Below the pieces are notes generated by a model that worked only from the letters and a program-made list of their open reading frames with translations, was not told where the DNA came from and ran no database searches. A stretch of 45,051 bases of DNA, taken from IMG/VR virus record IMGVR_UViG_3300038450_000158, positions 1-45,051 of that record; one strand, written 5' to 3'. This stretch comes from a virus. The translations under genes and the position numbers were made by a program. Below, piece by piece: positions 4,490 to 31,771 of this stretch (position 1 is the first letter of the stretch; the number at the start of each line of letters is the position of its first letter).

Positions 4490-4951
4490 ATGCCCCAAAC
4501 CCTTAAAAATATCTGTGACCCCTATGCCTGGATAATCATCGCCATCCTGGTAGCCATCGTCATTCTTCAGGCTGCGGGGATGGGGTTGAAGCCGCTGATT
4601 AAGGCCGCCTTGAGACGCCTTTCGGGAGAGAGAGCAGAGGTGAATGTCAATATCGGTGAAACAGGAGACGCAATGCCTAAATTTGGCAACCCAGGGGGCC
4701 TCATTGACCCTACACATTGCCCGGCCCACCTTGCTTTGGTTCAACAGGGCGATAGAAACGAAGCTGAAATCAAGGATATTTGGAAAACCTTTGGGGAACT
4801 GAGAAAAGACATGCAGGCGTGGTTTGAGCAAGTAAAGGATAGCCAGTCAACTCTTCTGGAGGCCATAAGAGCAACGACGGCGGCTGCGTCATCGGCGGCA
4901 ACGGCTGCGGCGGCGGCTGCGGCGGCGGTTGTGACAAGAGACAGGAGCTAA
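4490..4951 (+). CDS. Single-span membrane protein with Ala-rich C-terminus (lysis cassette)
   Basis: 153 residues. An N-terminal transmembrane helix (about residues 13-30, WIIIAILVAIVILQAAGM) is followed by a charged region, a helical segment near 95-125 and an alanine-rich tail encoded by GCG/GCA repeats. It starts 32 bases after the ATP-grasp gene and ends three bases before the endolysin gene. The topology fits a holin, antiholin or inner-membrane spanin component, but no family is recognised. The GC-rich Ala tract looks prone to slippage. Confidence 0.5.
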   Translation: MPQTLKNICDPYAWIIIAILVAIVILQAAGMGLKPLIKAALRRLSGERAEVNVNIGETGDAMPKFGNPGGLIDPTHCPAHLALVQQGDRNEAEIKDIWKTFGELRKDMQAWFEQVKDSQSTLLEAIRATTAAASSAATAAAAAAAAVVTRDRS

Positions 4952-16567: not shown

Positions 16568-17086
16568 TTATTTAAATCTCCCGTCAAGGCCATACCGATG
16601 AAGCCGCCGATGACAGGACTTACAAAGCCAAATTACTATTAAAGGTTCGTTATAATTGGGATGGTGTGATTCATATTGCTGTCCTATTTTGAAAACATCC
16701 CAGCATCCGTTACATAAAAGAGGCGGACCTTTAACCAGACCGGTCCTAAGAGCGTTTTTAAATTCAAGCCATGCTTTATCTTGTAATTTCTTTAATAAGT
16801 GATTAGCTTCCCGTTTCTTCCGTCTTTCAATCTGAATCTCTGTATTGCGGGTTTGATAATAATTATTAAAATAGGTTCTTTGCTTTTTCTGTAGATCGGG
16901 GTTTTTAGATTTATGTTCTACTTGATATCGACGGCCACAAGATTTACAATATGCTCCTTTACCACCGGCCATTAACGGATTGTCATAAAACTCAGTTGTC
17001 GGCTTGATCCCTTTTCACCGGGAACACCGACGATAAATTTGGTCGGCTTCCTGGAAAAACACCCGAGAACCCTCAATCGCTTCCAT
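16568..17086 (-). pseudogene. HNH endonuclease gene interrupted by in-frame TGA
   Basis: The intact-looking part (134 residues from ATG 16972) carries YCKSCGRRY and an HNH core (CNGCWDVF ... YESHHPNYNEP ... CKSCHRRLHR). It has no ribosome site. The same frame is open upstream to ATG 17086, interrupted only by TGA at 17015-17017. The upstream part ends RRCSR, and the part after the stop reads KGIKPTTEFY, so the TGA is where such HNH zinc fingers have the second Cys of CxxC. A nonsense mutation of TGC/TGT is most likely. The ATG at 17086 lies at the predicted start of transcription from the early-left promoter. Confidence 0.55.
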
Positions 17087-17092
17087 GATTAT

Positions 17093-17121
17093 CTATTAGC
17101 ACAGGCGAATTTCATTTGCAA
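17093..17121 (-). promoter_or_regulatory. Putative early-left promoter (PL-like)
   Basis: On the minus strand TTGCAA (17121-17116) and TAATAG (17098-17093) are 17 bases apart. The ATG at 17086 is where transcription should start, so the transcript is probably leaderless. The sequence between TTGCAA and TAAT is nearly the same as in the promoter at 17662-17690. Confidence 0.6.
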
Positions 17122-17129
17122 GGTTTTTT

Positions 17130-17143
17130 TTCGCATGAACGAA
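17130..17143. promoter_or_regulatory. Putative operator, left
   Basis: TTCGCATGAACGAA has inverted arms TTCG/CGAA. It ends 8 bases upstream of the -35 of the left promoter, the same spacing as the better palindrome at 17640-17653 shows to its promoter. Probable binding site for the repressor encoded next to it. Confidence 0.55.
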
Positions 17144-17196
17144 TTTTTTTTAGGGAGAAACTCGGGAGCGGGGATTAGTGCAGTTTAGGTCTGAAT

Positions 17197-17616
17197 TTAA
17201 GGATTTTCGCTAGTAGCTTCGAGGGGGGAAAAGAGCCTTTGGTGATAAACCTGGAGGCTTGCGGCGAGAGGTTCGATATCGCTATCGGCCAGAATGAGGG
17301 AAATTAATTTATCTATGAGGTTGTGGCGATCTTTCTTGATAGCTTCCTGCCAGCGAGAGAAGCCTAAATTTTCGGTATCCAGGCTGCAAGGCTTCTCGCC
17401 CCTGATGACATGGGCGAGTTTATAGATGGTGATGAAACTCGGCTGCTTATGGCCTTTTGCCCCTGATTTATATTCGTTGAAGGTTGTCTCAAGAACCCCT
17501 GCCGCCGCAGCCATATCTTTGTCGCTCTTGAATTTGGCGGGCCGCTTCTCCATTCCGGAAATCACTTCCTTAAAAAATTTCCAAGCGGCCGCCTCAATTT
17601 CCCTTGGAGTGTTCAT
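17197..17616 (-). CDS. CI-like repressor (HTH protein)
   Basis: 139 residues from ATG 17616, chosen for the GATAGGAGATAGC ribosome site; the frame is open further upstream across the operator, which is unlikely to be translated. An HTH-like region spans about residues 25-65 (SDKDMAAAAGVLETTFNEYK ... PSFITIYKLAHVIRG). The rest is helical and could dimerise; no LexA-type peptidase domain is seen. It is transcribed divergently from the Cro-like gene with operator-like palindromes on both sides, the classical layout of a lysogeny repressor. Confidence 0.65.
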   Translation of the reverse strand: MNTPREIEAAAWKFFKEVISGMEKRPAKFKSDKDMAAAAGVLETTFNEYKSGAKGHKQPSFITIYKLAHVIRGEKPCSLDTENLGFSRWQEAIKKDRHNLIDKLISLILADSDIEPLAASLQVYHQRLFSPLEATSENP

Positions 17617-17639
17617 GCTATCTCCTATCATGGGATTTA

Positions 17640-17653
17640 TTCGCATGGGCGAA
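17640..17653. promoter_or_regulatory. Putative operator, right
   Basis: TTCGCATGGGCGAA is a perfect palindrome with 5-base arms (TTCGC/GCGAA) and 4-base spacer. It lies in the divergent repressor/Cro region, 8 bases upstream of the right promoter -35 and 24 bases upstream of the repressor start, so binding could control both. Confidence 0.65.
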
Positions 17654-17661
17654 AATATGTC

Positions 17662-17690
17662 TTGCAAATCCGATTCGCTTGTGCTAATCA
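17662..17690 (+). promoter_or_regulatory. Putative early-right promoter (PR-like)
   Basis: TTGCAA at 17662-17667 and TAATCA at 17685-17690 with a 17-base spacer. The next ATG is at 17698, where transcription should begin, and no ribosome site is present, so the Cro-like mRNA is probably leaderless. The -35 is a palindrome, so it could also serve the opposite strand. Confidence 0.6.
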
Positions 17691-17697
17691 TCGTTTT

Positions 17698-17913
17698 ATG
17701 ACCCTCAGAGAATTTTTCACCGAGCAAGGCATCCACTACACCCCGTGGGCGAAAATGAATGGTGTCCCGGCCTCCTGTATCCATCGCCACCTTAGGGGGA
17801 AGGGCTATTTTAAGCCGGCAACCGCCCGGATAATTCATAAAGCTACTGGCTGCTTGGTTCCTTTGGTCAACTTATGCCCTGACCTGGAAGAAAGTTCGCC
17901 TGACTGTGCCTAA
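17698..17913 (+). CDS. Cro-like HTH protein
   Basis: 71 residues from ATG 17698. The sequence MTLREFFTEQGIHYTPWAKMNG followed by a second helix pair (PATARIIHKATGCLV) fits a small YdaS/Cro-type HTH protein, in which a short N-terminal helix, a recognition helix near HRHL and a K-A-T-G turn are usual. It is divergent from the repressor and heads the rightward early genes. Confidence 0.6.
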   Translation: MTLREFFTEQGIHYTPWAKMNGVPASCIHRHLRGKGYFKPATARIIHKATGCLVPLVNLCPDLEESSPDCA

Positions 17914-18351: not shown

Positions 18352-18595
18352 CCCCACCCCACCGCTGCTAACCGTCAAGGAGGCGGCTTTGCTCTTGAAA
18401 TTATCTCCACGTTCTATATACCGAAAGGCGCGGGTACTCGGGGGCTTCTACCCTCTTGGCCTGCGCTGTTTACGATTTCGGGCGGAGGTAATTTTCAATG
18501 CCATGCTGGCGCGAGAAGAAGGGCTGGCGGTATCGATTCCAGTACCAGGGCAAAAAATTCAACAAAGCCTGGTTTCGTACCAAGGCCCAGGCTAG
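18341..18595 (+). CDS. Excisionase-like MerR-type HTH protein
   Basis: 84 residues from ATG 18341. LLTVKEAALLLKLSPRSIYR is the helix-turn-helix of the excisionase/helix_turn_helix_17 family, followed by a short wing containing LRFRAEVI. The last 30 residues overlap the integrase gene out of frame. Its position immediately before the integrase gene supports a directionality-factor role. Confidence 0.65.
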   Translation: MGDNPTPPLLTVKEAALLLKLSPRSIYRKARVLGGFYPLGLRCLRFRAEVIFNAMLAREEGLAVSIPVPGQKIQQSLVSYQGPG

Positions 18596-19499
18596 AGCTG
18601 CCGAAGCGGTGCACAAGGCCGAGTTAAAAAAAGCGGTGACGGCCAAGACCCGAACCGGCATGGGCTTCGAGGACCTCGCAAATGAATACCTCGACTACGG
18701 AATTAGAAGATTTGCTCCAAAGACTTACAAGTATAAATCCTATGTCTTTAAAGAATTCATTAGGGTCATGGGAGATTTACCCCTCTCCCGGATCTCGGTG
18801 TCTGTGCTGGAGATTTATCTACGATCTCGGCGAACTAATGTCAATTATAACCGGCATAGAAAAGATCTCTGTGCGCTGCTGGTTTGGGCATGGAAAAGGC
18901 AAAAGATTGAGCAAAATCCGTGTTTCTTCCTGGAGAAGATGCCGGAGCCTCAGTTCATCCGGCAAATACCCACGCCTGATGAGATGCGCCGCCTCCTGCT
19001 GGCGGCAGGGGAGGACCGGCCATTAATCCTCGTCCTCTATCACACCCTGGCCCGAATAGACGAGGCGCTGAGGCTCCGCTGGGAGGATGTGAATTTCCAG
19101 GAGCGCACGGTGCGACTATGGACCAGGAAGCGCAGGGATGGGGCCTGGGCTGCCGATACGCTACCCATGAATCAGGTGCTATACGACACCCTCTGGGGCC
19201 TGTGGCGGGCACGAGAGCAAGCGGAGTGGGTATTCTACAACGAGAAGACACGGACTCGGTATATGAGACGCCCCAAGTTGATGCGCACCCTTTGCCGGAG
19301 GGCGGGGATAAGATATTTCAATTTTCATTCCATTCGCGCATATGTAGCTTCTTTACTCCACGATTCAAAGAAGGTAAGCACAATAGTAATATCCAAATTA
19401 TTGCGTCACAAGAGTCTTCAAACCACCGAAATATATATAAAAAGTATGGACAAAGGGATGCAAGATGCGATAGAATTACTAGAGAAAATTCAGTATTAA
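18498..19499 (+). CDS. int: Tyrosine recombinase (phage integrase)
   Basis: 333 residues. An N-terminal arm-binding segment (WRYRFQYQGKKFNKAWF), a core-binding SAM-like domain (about 55-140) and the catalytic domain with Arg186 (LARIDE), Lys210, His277-Arg280 (HSIR), His304 (LRHKS) and Tyr313 (TEIYIKS). All catalytic positions are present, so it should be active. It catalyses integration and, with a directionality factor, excision. It overlaps the excisionase-like gene by 98 bases. Confidence 0.85.
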   Translation: MPCWREKKGWRYRFQYQGKKFNKAWFRTKAQARAAEAVHKAELKKAVTAKTRTGMGFEDLANEYLDYGIRRFAPKTYKYKSYVFKEFIRVMGDLPLSRISVSVLEIYLRSRRTNVNYNRHRKDLCALLVWAWKRQKIEQNPCFFLEKMPEPQFIRQIPTPDEMRRLLLAAGEDRPLILVLYHTLARIDEALRLRWEDVNFQERTVRLWTRKRRDGAWAADTLPMNQVLYDTLWGLWRAREQAEWVFYNEKTRTRYMRRPKLMRTLCRRAGIRYFNFHSIRAYVASLLHDSKKVSTIVISKLLRHKSLQTTEIYIKSMDKGMQDAIELLEKIQY

Positions 19500-20129: not shown

Positions 20130-20206
20130 TGGTCGGGGCGGGCGGATTCGGACCGCCGACTTCCTGGTCCCAGGCCAGGCGCGCTTCCAGACTGCGCTAC
20201 GCCCCG
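20130..20206 (-). tRNA. tRNA-Pro (UGG), with encoded CCA and C33
   Basis: Full cloverleaf on the minus strand. The acceptor stem is CGGGGCG/CGCCCCG (7 pairs), the D-stem GCGC/GCGC, the anticodon stem CCTGG/CCAGG with loop CCTGGGA, and the T-arm GGCGG/CCGCC with loop TCCGAAT. Discriminator A and CCA are encoded. Anticodon TGG reads proline codons. Position 33 is C instead of the almost invariant U and T-loop position 55 is C, so function may be reduced. As the tRNA gene next to the integrase it is also an attachment-site candidate. Confidence 0.75.
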
Positions 20207-29038: not shown

Positions 29039-29114
29039 CGGGGTGTAGCTCAGTCAGCGGAGCGCCGGGCCTGGGACCCGGAGGTCGCAGGAGCGAAGCC
29101 TGCCGCCCCGACCA
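29039..29114 (+). tRNA. tRNA-Pro (UGG), second copy, degenerate T-loop
   Basis: Acceptor CGGGGTG/CGCCCCG, D-stem GCTC/GAGC, anticodon stem CCGGG/CCCGG with the same loop CCTGGGA as the other tRNA-Pro (C33), T-stem GCAGG/CCTGC with loop AGCGAAG instead of TTCGANT; A and CCA encoded. The altered T-loop makes full function doubtful. Only about two thirds identical to the copy at 20130-20206, so not a simple recent duplicate. Confidence 0.65.
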
Positions 29115-30472: not shown

Positions 30473-31006
30473 ATGACCCCTGAAGAGAAAAGCGCCCAAT
30501 GCCGTCAAGCCGTTCTTAGTGCCATTAACAAGTTGACCCCAGAGGAACGTAAAAAGAGGATGGAAAGAGCACTCGCCGCTCGTTGGGGACCAAAGGACGA
30601 GACAGAGAAGGAAGAAGATAAAGAGCTAAAACAGTTAGAAAAACTGCAAAGGGCGGCTAGCTCGATAAAAGATAAAAAGCATGAAGGAAGTGGGCCAGAT
30701 CCGGCGAAAGTGTGTCGTGCCGTCGGCTTGGGAGAGATTGACGTTCTTAAGGGTGTTAAGACTCTAGCCGAAAAGTCTAAGTCAGATGTAGTGCGCCTGC
30801 GAGCCTATGAGCTGGCCTGCAAGGTTTTACGCATGATCAGGGAGGATACCCAGCAGAATGAGGGGGTTAGGATCATCATTCAGGCCCTTGAGGGCTCCCA
30901 GCAAGTCAACATCACCCCACCGGGCCAGACCCTACTCCAGGAGCCAGCCTCTTACAATCACCCTCAGCCCTCATCGCCTGGCAAGCCGATCCAGATAGTC
31001 AAGTGA
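30473..31006 (+). CDS. Terminase small subunit (putative)
   Basis: 177 residues. Highly charged helical N-terminal half (MTPEEKSAQCRQAVLSAINK ... RMERALAARWG), a middle with HTH-like DPAKVCRAVGLGEIDVLKGV, then a Pro/Gln-rich tail. Small terminase subunits are often basic HTH proteins with low-complexity ends. Placement upstream of TerL (with an accessory island between) and just after the possible packaging region supports the call, but the family is not certain. Confidence 0.45.
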   Translation: MTPEEKSAQCRQAVLSAINKLTPEERKKRMERALAARWGPKDETEKEEDKELKQLEKLQRAASSIKDKKHEGSGPDPAKVCRAVGLGEIDVLKGVKTLAEKSKSDVVRLRAYELACKVLRMIREDTQQNEGVRIIIQALEGSQQVNITPPGQTLLQEPASYNHPQPSSPGKPIQIVK

Positions 31007-31338: not shown

Positions 31339-31368
31339 TTGACAACCTTTTCTGAAATCCTATATATT
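31339..31368 (+). promoter_or_regulatory. Promoter giving a leaderless mRNA
   Basis: TTGACA at 31339-31344 and TATATT at 31363-31368 (18-base spacer; TATATA at 31361 would give 16). The ATG at 31376 lies at the expected transcription start, with no ribosome site between. Confidence 0.6.
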
Positions 31369-31375
31369 CCAAATC

Positions 31376-31771
31376 ATGACAGCTTGGGGTTTTAAAATTA
31401 AAAGGCAACAAAGTAATGATAAATCTTCTTCTATTTTAGAAGCGCCTTCTATAGACATAGAGAAAGAGAAGTTTAAAAGAACAATTGTCCATCTTGAGGA
31501 TTTAAACAGCGACCTTCATAAAGACAATTTTGATTTACGGAACCAGGTTATTGCTCAAAAGAAGCAATTAATTCAATTACAGCATCAACTCAGCATGGCG
31601 CAGCGGTATCCGGGATATTTAGGGAAGATTCCACCAGAAGCAGACCTCTTGGAATTTATTGAAAGGCACCTGAAGTTTCTGATTTTTGCTTCACATCCAG
31701 ACCGGAATCCTGGGAACGATGAAGCAGCCGAGGTCACCAGAAAGTTGATAAAATTTAAAGAGGGGGAATAA
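31376..31771 (+). CDS. J-domain-like protein with coiled coil
   Basis: 131 residues. Residues 25-80 are a coiled coil (VHLEDLNSDLHKDNFDLRNQ ... KKQLIQLQHQLSMA). The C-terminal 45 contain FLIFASHPDRNPGNDEAAEVTRKL, a truncated J-domain with the HPD motif needed to stimulate DnaK. Small phage proteins with such C-terminal HPD segments are known. It could recruit host DnaK to a phage or host target. It has its own promoter. Confidence 0.6.
   Translation: MTAWGFKIKRQQSNDKSSSILEAPSIDIEKEKFKRTIVHLEDLNSDLHKDNFDLRNQVIAQKKQLIQLQHQLSMAQRYPGYLGKIPPEADLLEFIERHLKFLIFASHPDRNPGNDEAAEVTRKLIKFKEGE

Follow-up and report, generated by a model that had tools for sequence, protein, structure and literature searches.

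The immunity region and its genes

The stretch of DNA considered here, called the window, is a complete IMG/VR virus contig, 45,051 bases long. Across the immunity region, its sequence is matched letter for letter by another contig, IMGVR_UViG_3300025459_000008, which has 53,537 bases. At this locus, a repressor-like gene and a Cro-like gene diverge, and an HNH endonuclease-like gene is the first on the early-left side (Table 1). An integrase gene is found at 18498–19499. The whole represents the lysis–lysogeny control (immunity) region of a temperate phage. As relatives of its integrase sit in deltaproteobacterial genomes, the virus likely has a deltaproteobacterial host.

The 139-aa protein is called a repressor because of the gene order, its weak similarity to the HTH_3 repressor of the related locus L011 (28% identity, E=2e-6) and a low-confidence structural model (mean pLDDT 57.5, highest at residues 10–60) that resembles XRE/phage repressors. 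The top structural matches of this model, none of them significant, were SinR, a phage repressor and HipB-type proteins. The protein had no family match of its own, and no S24 domain was found in its 139 aa; a self-cleaving S24 repressor, as present in the relative L035, is not required of all CI-like switches. The divergence of the repressor gene from a small Cro-type HTH gene, which a lambda-type switch does require, is borne out by the gene order and the Cro relatives.

The window also holds two tRNA-Pro(TGG) genes, at 20130–20206 (−) and 29039–29114 (+). One of them lies directly downstream of the integrase gene, and a 55-nt stretch with 87% identity occupies the same place in L011 (7053–7107); this stretch is possibly the attachment site. 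The orientation of the immunity cassette relative to the integrase is opposite in L011 and the window.

Table 1. Genes, promoter elements and operators of the immunity region.
Feature	Position	Strand	Remarks
Early-left first gene, HNH endonuclease-like	16568–17086	−	ATG 17086, predicted to be leaderless; TGA at 17015–17017
Early-left extended −10, TGTG-C-TAATAG (likely)	17093–17103	−	
Operator TTCGCCTGTGCTAA	17096–17109	−	overlaps the early-left −10 region
Early-left −35, TTGCAA	17116–17121	−	
Operator TTCGTTCATGCGAA	17130–17143	−	8 bp before the early-left −35
Repressor gene, 139 aa	17197–17616	−	Shine-Dalgarno sequence AGGAG at 17622–17626
Operator TTCGCATGGGCGAA	17640–17653	+	half-sites of 5 bp, perfect; 8 bp before the cro −35; repressor-promoter side
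cro −35, TTGCAA	17662–17667	+	self-complementary; position kept in relatives
Operator TTCGCTTGTGCTAA	17674–17687	+	overlaps the cro −10; score 18.9; counterpart in L042, L011 and L035; absent from the original prediction
cro extended −10, TGTG-C-TAATCA (likely)	17680–17690	+	compare TATG-C-TAATCA at both L042 promoters
cro-like gene, 71 aa	17698–17913	+	no Shine-Dalgarno sequence; predicted mRNA start at the ATG or within ~3 nt

Early promoters and paired operators

The two promoters facing outwards from the repressor gene share the block TTGCAAAT-N3-ATTCGC-N-TGTGCTAAT exactly, the chance expectation being 0. The shared motif TTGCAAATNNNATTCGCNTGTGCTAAT has two copies only, at 17662–17688 (+) and 17095–17121 (−), and was absent from all 100 shuffles, so that the likeness described in the original prediction is real. 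Equally true at both promoters is the TTCG-type inverted repeat ending 8 bp before the TTGCAA of the −35. The start codons follow the preferred −10 sequences by 6–7 nt and the −35 by 30 nt (cro) and 29 nt (early-left). These −10 sequences match sigma-70 poorly, and the transcription start is therefore not fixable from the window sequence alone; an alternative cro −10, AATCAT, has an 18-bp spacer. Being self-complementary, TTGCAA could also serve the divergent repressor promoter.

One operator per promoter had been proposed, but there are two at each. Repeat analysis of the window yielded a family, D1, with four copies, at 17095, 17129, 17639 and 17673, of which the two additional ones sit inside the presumed promoter box and overlap the −10. 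This box, ATTCGCnTGTGCTAAT, is itself an operator of the form TTCGC-N4-GCTAA. Its conserved part, ATTCGCnTGTGCTAA, reads TTCGC-N4-GCTAA, which makes the arrangement one of paired 14-bp operators at each promoter, 34 bp apart, in which the −35 lies between the two and the −10 is covered by the inner one. The four operators, which occur nowhere else in the genome, score 17.7–20.3 bits on a matrix built from these same four sites, against 11.9 for the next best site in the window. None of 200 shuffles had four sites in a 600-bp span or two sites spaced by 33–35 bp. By analogy with OR3 of lambda, the right outer operator may lie over the region expected for the leftward repressor promoter. Of the proposed lambda-style OL/OR pair, the repressor/Cro switch and the matching of the operator regions on both sides thus hold, whereas the single operator per promoter does not.

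Conservation of the layout in related phages

Relatives were picked by protein similarity and not by promoter; three of them (L040, L044 and L045) came from host genomes, through the likeness of their Cro. Searches with the window repressor and Cro, run against annotated phages and against contigs of viruses and genomes, gave the identical contig or no match; at the DNA level, scanning for the promoter block or for operator-N8-TTGCAA led back to the same phage only. A search with the L011 repressor returned L016 and L017, which are unrelated loci. L012, L013 and L014 have related integrases, with no immunity region within the stretch examined, and L046–L049, L052 and L053, among the Cro matches, were set aside as HigA-type antitoxins rather than phage Cro.

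The closest relative, L042 (Cro 60% and repressor 42% identical to those of the window), repeats all four operators and has TTGCAA-N17-TAATCA-N6-ATG at both promoters. Both read TATG-C-TAATCA, the TAATCA of which is part of TAATCA-AGGGGC-ATG, and this supports an extended −10 of the form TRTG-n-TAATCA located 6–7 nt before the ATG. The 8-base gap between operator and −35, whose conservation was looked at in the relatives, is not strictly kept, since L042 has 8 and 9.

In L011, whose integrase is 76% identical, the operators are unrelated (ATACC-N4-GGTAT), and near-consensus promoters precede cro (TTGCAA-N18-TATAAG-N6-ATG) and an HNH-type gene (TTGACA-N18-TATAAA-N6-ATG). L035 carries TTGCC-N4-GGCAA operator pairs in an equal layout at cro, alongside an S24-type repressor, and L040, L044 and L045 have TTGACA 30–31 nt upstream of the cro ATG. 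The operators among the relatives are thus of the TATACC type, the TTGCC type and others, with the geometry kept throughout: the spacing of the operator pairs is 34 ± 1 bp at matching promoters of L042, L011, L035 and L045. In all ten promoters, belonging to seven Cro relatives and three early-left genes without a proper Shine-Dalgarno sequence, the −35 ends 29–31 nt before the ATG, the chance of such a −35 in a 3-nt window being 0.0017 per gene.

This layout is not universal. The weaker Cro matches L051, L054 and L055 have Shine-Dalgarno-like leaders, and the gene served by the left promoter of L035 has both a long leader and a Shine-Dalgarno sequence, so the left side is not leaderless in every phage. 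A third operator-bearing promoter of L011 (4740) also precedes a gene with a Shine-Dalgarno leader. Because these two operator-bearing promoters of L035 and L011 precede leadered genes, repression alone does not account for the short distance between −35 and ATG. The L011 promoter (4731–4796, +) has a single operator; the gene behind it codes for an SmpA-like lipoprotein, has a normal Shine-Dalgarno leader and is possibly an extra target of the L011 repressor. In L038 (1934–1982, −), an operator pair surrounds TTGACA-N17-TATAAA directly downstream of a terminase-like reading frame; no obvious ORF directly follows this promoter.

Predicted leaderless starts

Many genes of the window have clear Shine-Dalgarno sequences; cro and the early-left gene do not, the best match being 3 nt at both ATGs. 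In L042, AAGGGG stands directly before both ATGs, too near for a normal Shine-Dalgarno sequence. A −10 located 6–8 nt before the start is clear in L011, L040 and L044; that of the window is weak with equal spacing. Across the seven relatives, conservation of the Cro N-terminus begins at residue 1. The leaderless early starts of the original prediction are therefore supported by ATGs 6–7 nt after the likely −10 and by a layout kept in relatives. From these features, we infer that a leaderless cro is conserved, together with a leaderless early-left gene in three phages.

The main competitor is a start a few bases further upstream, giving leaders of several nt and initiation independent of Shine-Dalgarno pairing. 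With GCTAAT as −10 (4 of 6 consensus positions in the window and L042, 15-bp spacer), for example, a start at G17693 would leave a 5-nt leader. Such leaders are a minor but real possibility; the near-consensus −10s of L011, L040 and L044, 6–8 nt before the ATG, leave a leader of at most ~1–2 nt, and the constant 29–31 nt between −35 and ATG in 10 of 10 promoters also speaks against them.

Leaderless starts are a habit of the group rather than a peculiarity of this switch, as indicated by genome samples, a published survey and a further gene of the window. Among ~747 starts, sampled from three genomes of the host class and the phage loci, ~8 genes have a strong sigma-70-like promoter 6–8 nt before the ATG, all without a Shine-Dalgarno sequence, compared with ~1.7 per equal-width bin further upstream, although these counts are small; the figure for E. 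coli is 0 of 208 starts. In the survey, leaderless genes were reported for 8 of 33 deltaproteobacterial genomes, making up 15.8% of genes on average (5.7–20.6%) (PMC3160421). The window gene at 31376 (TTGACA-N18-TATATT-N7-ATG) has no Shine-Dalgarno sequence and no such operator nearby, and is probably leaderless too. Its near-consensus promoter (31340–31376, +) directly abuts the ATG; the encoded 131 aa have coiled-coil character and include an HPDRNPGN stretch that recalls J-domains. A weaker leaderless candidate, also without a Shine-Dalgarno sequence, lies at 30473 (+; TTGACT-N16-GTTAAT-N8-ATG).

The early-left gene

Read from its ATG, the early-left frame gives MEAIEGSRVFFQEADQIYRRCSR*KGIKPTTEF... 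and would join the HNH-like ORF at 16568–16972 but for a single TGA. This TGA is codon 24, falls at a conserved Cys of the family, and recurs in the 100% identical contig IMGVR_UViG_3300025459_000008. With the TGA position read as Cys, the product matches the phrog_2340 endonuclease (E=2.3e-21). As the frame is broken, the start codon in the window is assigned by geometry alone, and likewise that of L042, whose contig ends after 20 bp.

A frame interrupted after 23 codons would suit an early-left "promoter" that is mainly a second operator site for looping or cooperativity and serves no important leaderless gene. We regard this as improbable, slightly more so than the short leaders, given that the HNH-type gene of L011 is intact and starts equally far from its near-consensus promoter, and that the window continues downstream with many consecutive minus-strand genes, among them one for a Holliday junction resolvase. 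Far less credible is readthrough of the TGA, by selenocysteine insertion or suppression, to a full-length HNH protein. The position of the TGA exactly at the conserved Cys would fit, as would the rise of the phrog_2340 score from 70.0 to 77.7 bits (+7.7) when it is read as Cys instead of X. However, no SECIS-like stem was found after the TGA, where the fold is no better than that of shuffles (z=+1.2), and the genome uses TGA as an ordinary stop, with 14 of the 42 likely genes of the window ending in it; selenocysteine is thereby discarded. For the same two reasons, the likeliest reading of the TGA is a nonsense codon that disrupts the early-left gene in this lineage of the phage. That the promoter likeness is a functionless result of recent duplication or coincidence can practically be dismissed: duplication could give two near-identical blocks, but it is insufficient alone, because L042 keeps both copies despite 42% repressor identity and the relatives changed operators at both promoters in step.

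Proposed switch

The sequences, their geometry and its conservation in relatives fit a four-operator repressor/Cro immunity region with both early transcripts leaderless and the repressor leadered, which we hold to be the correct reading with good, though not full, confidence. The small XRE-type repressor would bind the four 14-bp operators (TTCGC-N4-GCGAA form), two each at the early-right (cro) and early-left promoters, 34 bp apart within a pair. The inner operator of each pair would cover the −10 and block RNA polymerase, and the outer one would lie beyond the −35, on the right also over the promoter region of the repressor itself, like OR3 of lambda. Once repression is lifted, both promoters would become active, Cro would act on the lytic side, and both early transcripts would start at the AUG or within ~3 nt of it. 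They would be translated without a Shine-Dalgarno sequence, whereas the repressor message would carry a leader with one.

As in lambda CI/Cro with OL and OR, the repressor and cro genes diverge, both early promoters carry matched palindromic operators, and these overlap promoter elements. The switch differs from that of lambda in having two operators per side instead of three, a repressor of only 139 aa in which no S24 domain was found, and predicted leaderless lytic-side genes with a Shine-Dalgarno sequence on the repressor, where lambda has a leaderless cI. Leaderless repressor genes are known from lambda (cI) and from the cryptic prophage CP-933P (paaR2) (PMC8630535). In CP-933P, the repressor likewise diverges from a YdaS/Cro-type gene, but the leaderless gene is the repressor paaR2 (PMC8630535). 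The Cro relative of L040 matches Pfam YdaS_toxin.

A parallel for cro is immB of the telomere phage PY54, for which passages of PMC4488713 describe a cro mRNA that starts at the AUG, as mapped by RACE. There, cI is mapped as leaderless too and Cro binds a single operator; these passages report no leaderless early-left gene. The leaderless genes of deltaproteobacteria resemble those predicted in the window in that a −10-like signal precedes the start codon by ~12 bp, although that survey concerns host genes and not a phage switch (PMC3160421). The "unusual switch" of the original prediction is thus weakened by this deltaproteobacterial habit, by gene 31376 and by the mapped PY54 cro.

Implications for the phage family

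The switch type itself is already known, as are leaderless messages in deltaproteobacteria. New is the combination of a predicted leaderless cro and leaderless early-left gene with a Shine-Dalgarno-bearing repressor, in a geometry surviving full operator turnover. This describes a family of temperate-phage switches in deltaproteobacteria with complete operator turnover and constant spacing of the start codon from operator and −35. That this spacing stays fixed while operators are replaced suggests that the leaderless start is under evolutionary constraint. It is conceivable, though doubtful, that selection keeps the lytic-side transcripts leaderless and thereby ties lytic entry to ribosome state, for example to 70S-type initiation under stress. 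If so, a translational layer would be added to the phage decision, with the Shine-Dalgarno-bearing repressor made by normal initiation and the sign opposite to that in lambda. The seven phages and prophages provide a comparative set for a lysis–lysogeny bias by leaderless lytic genes.
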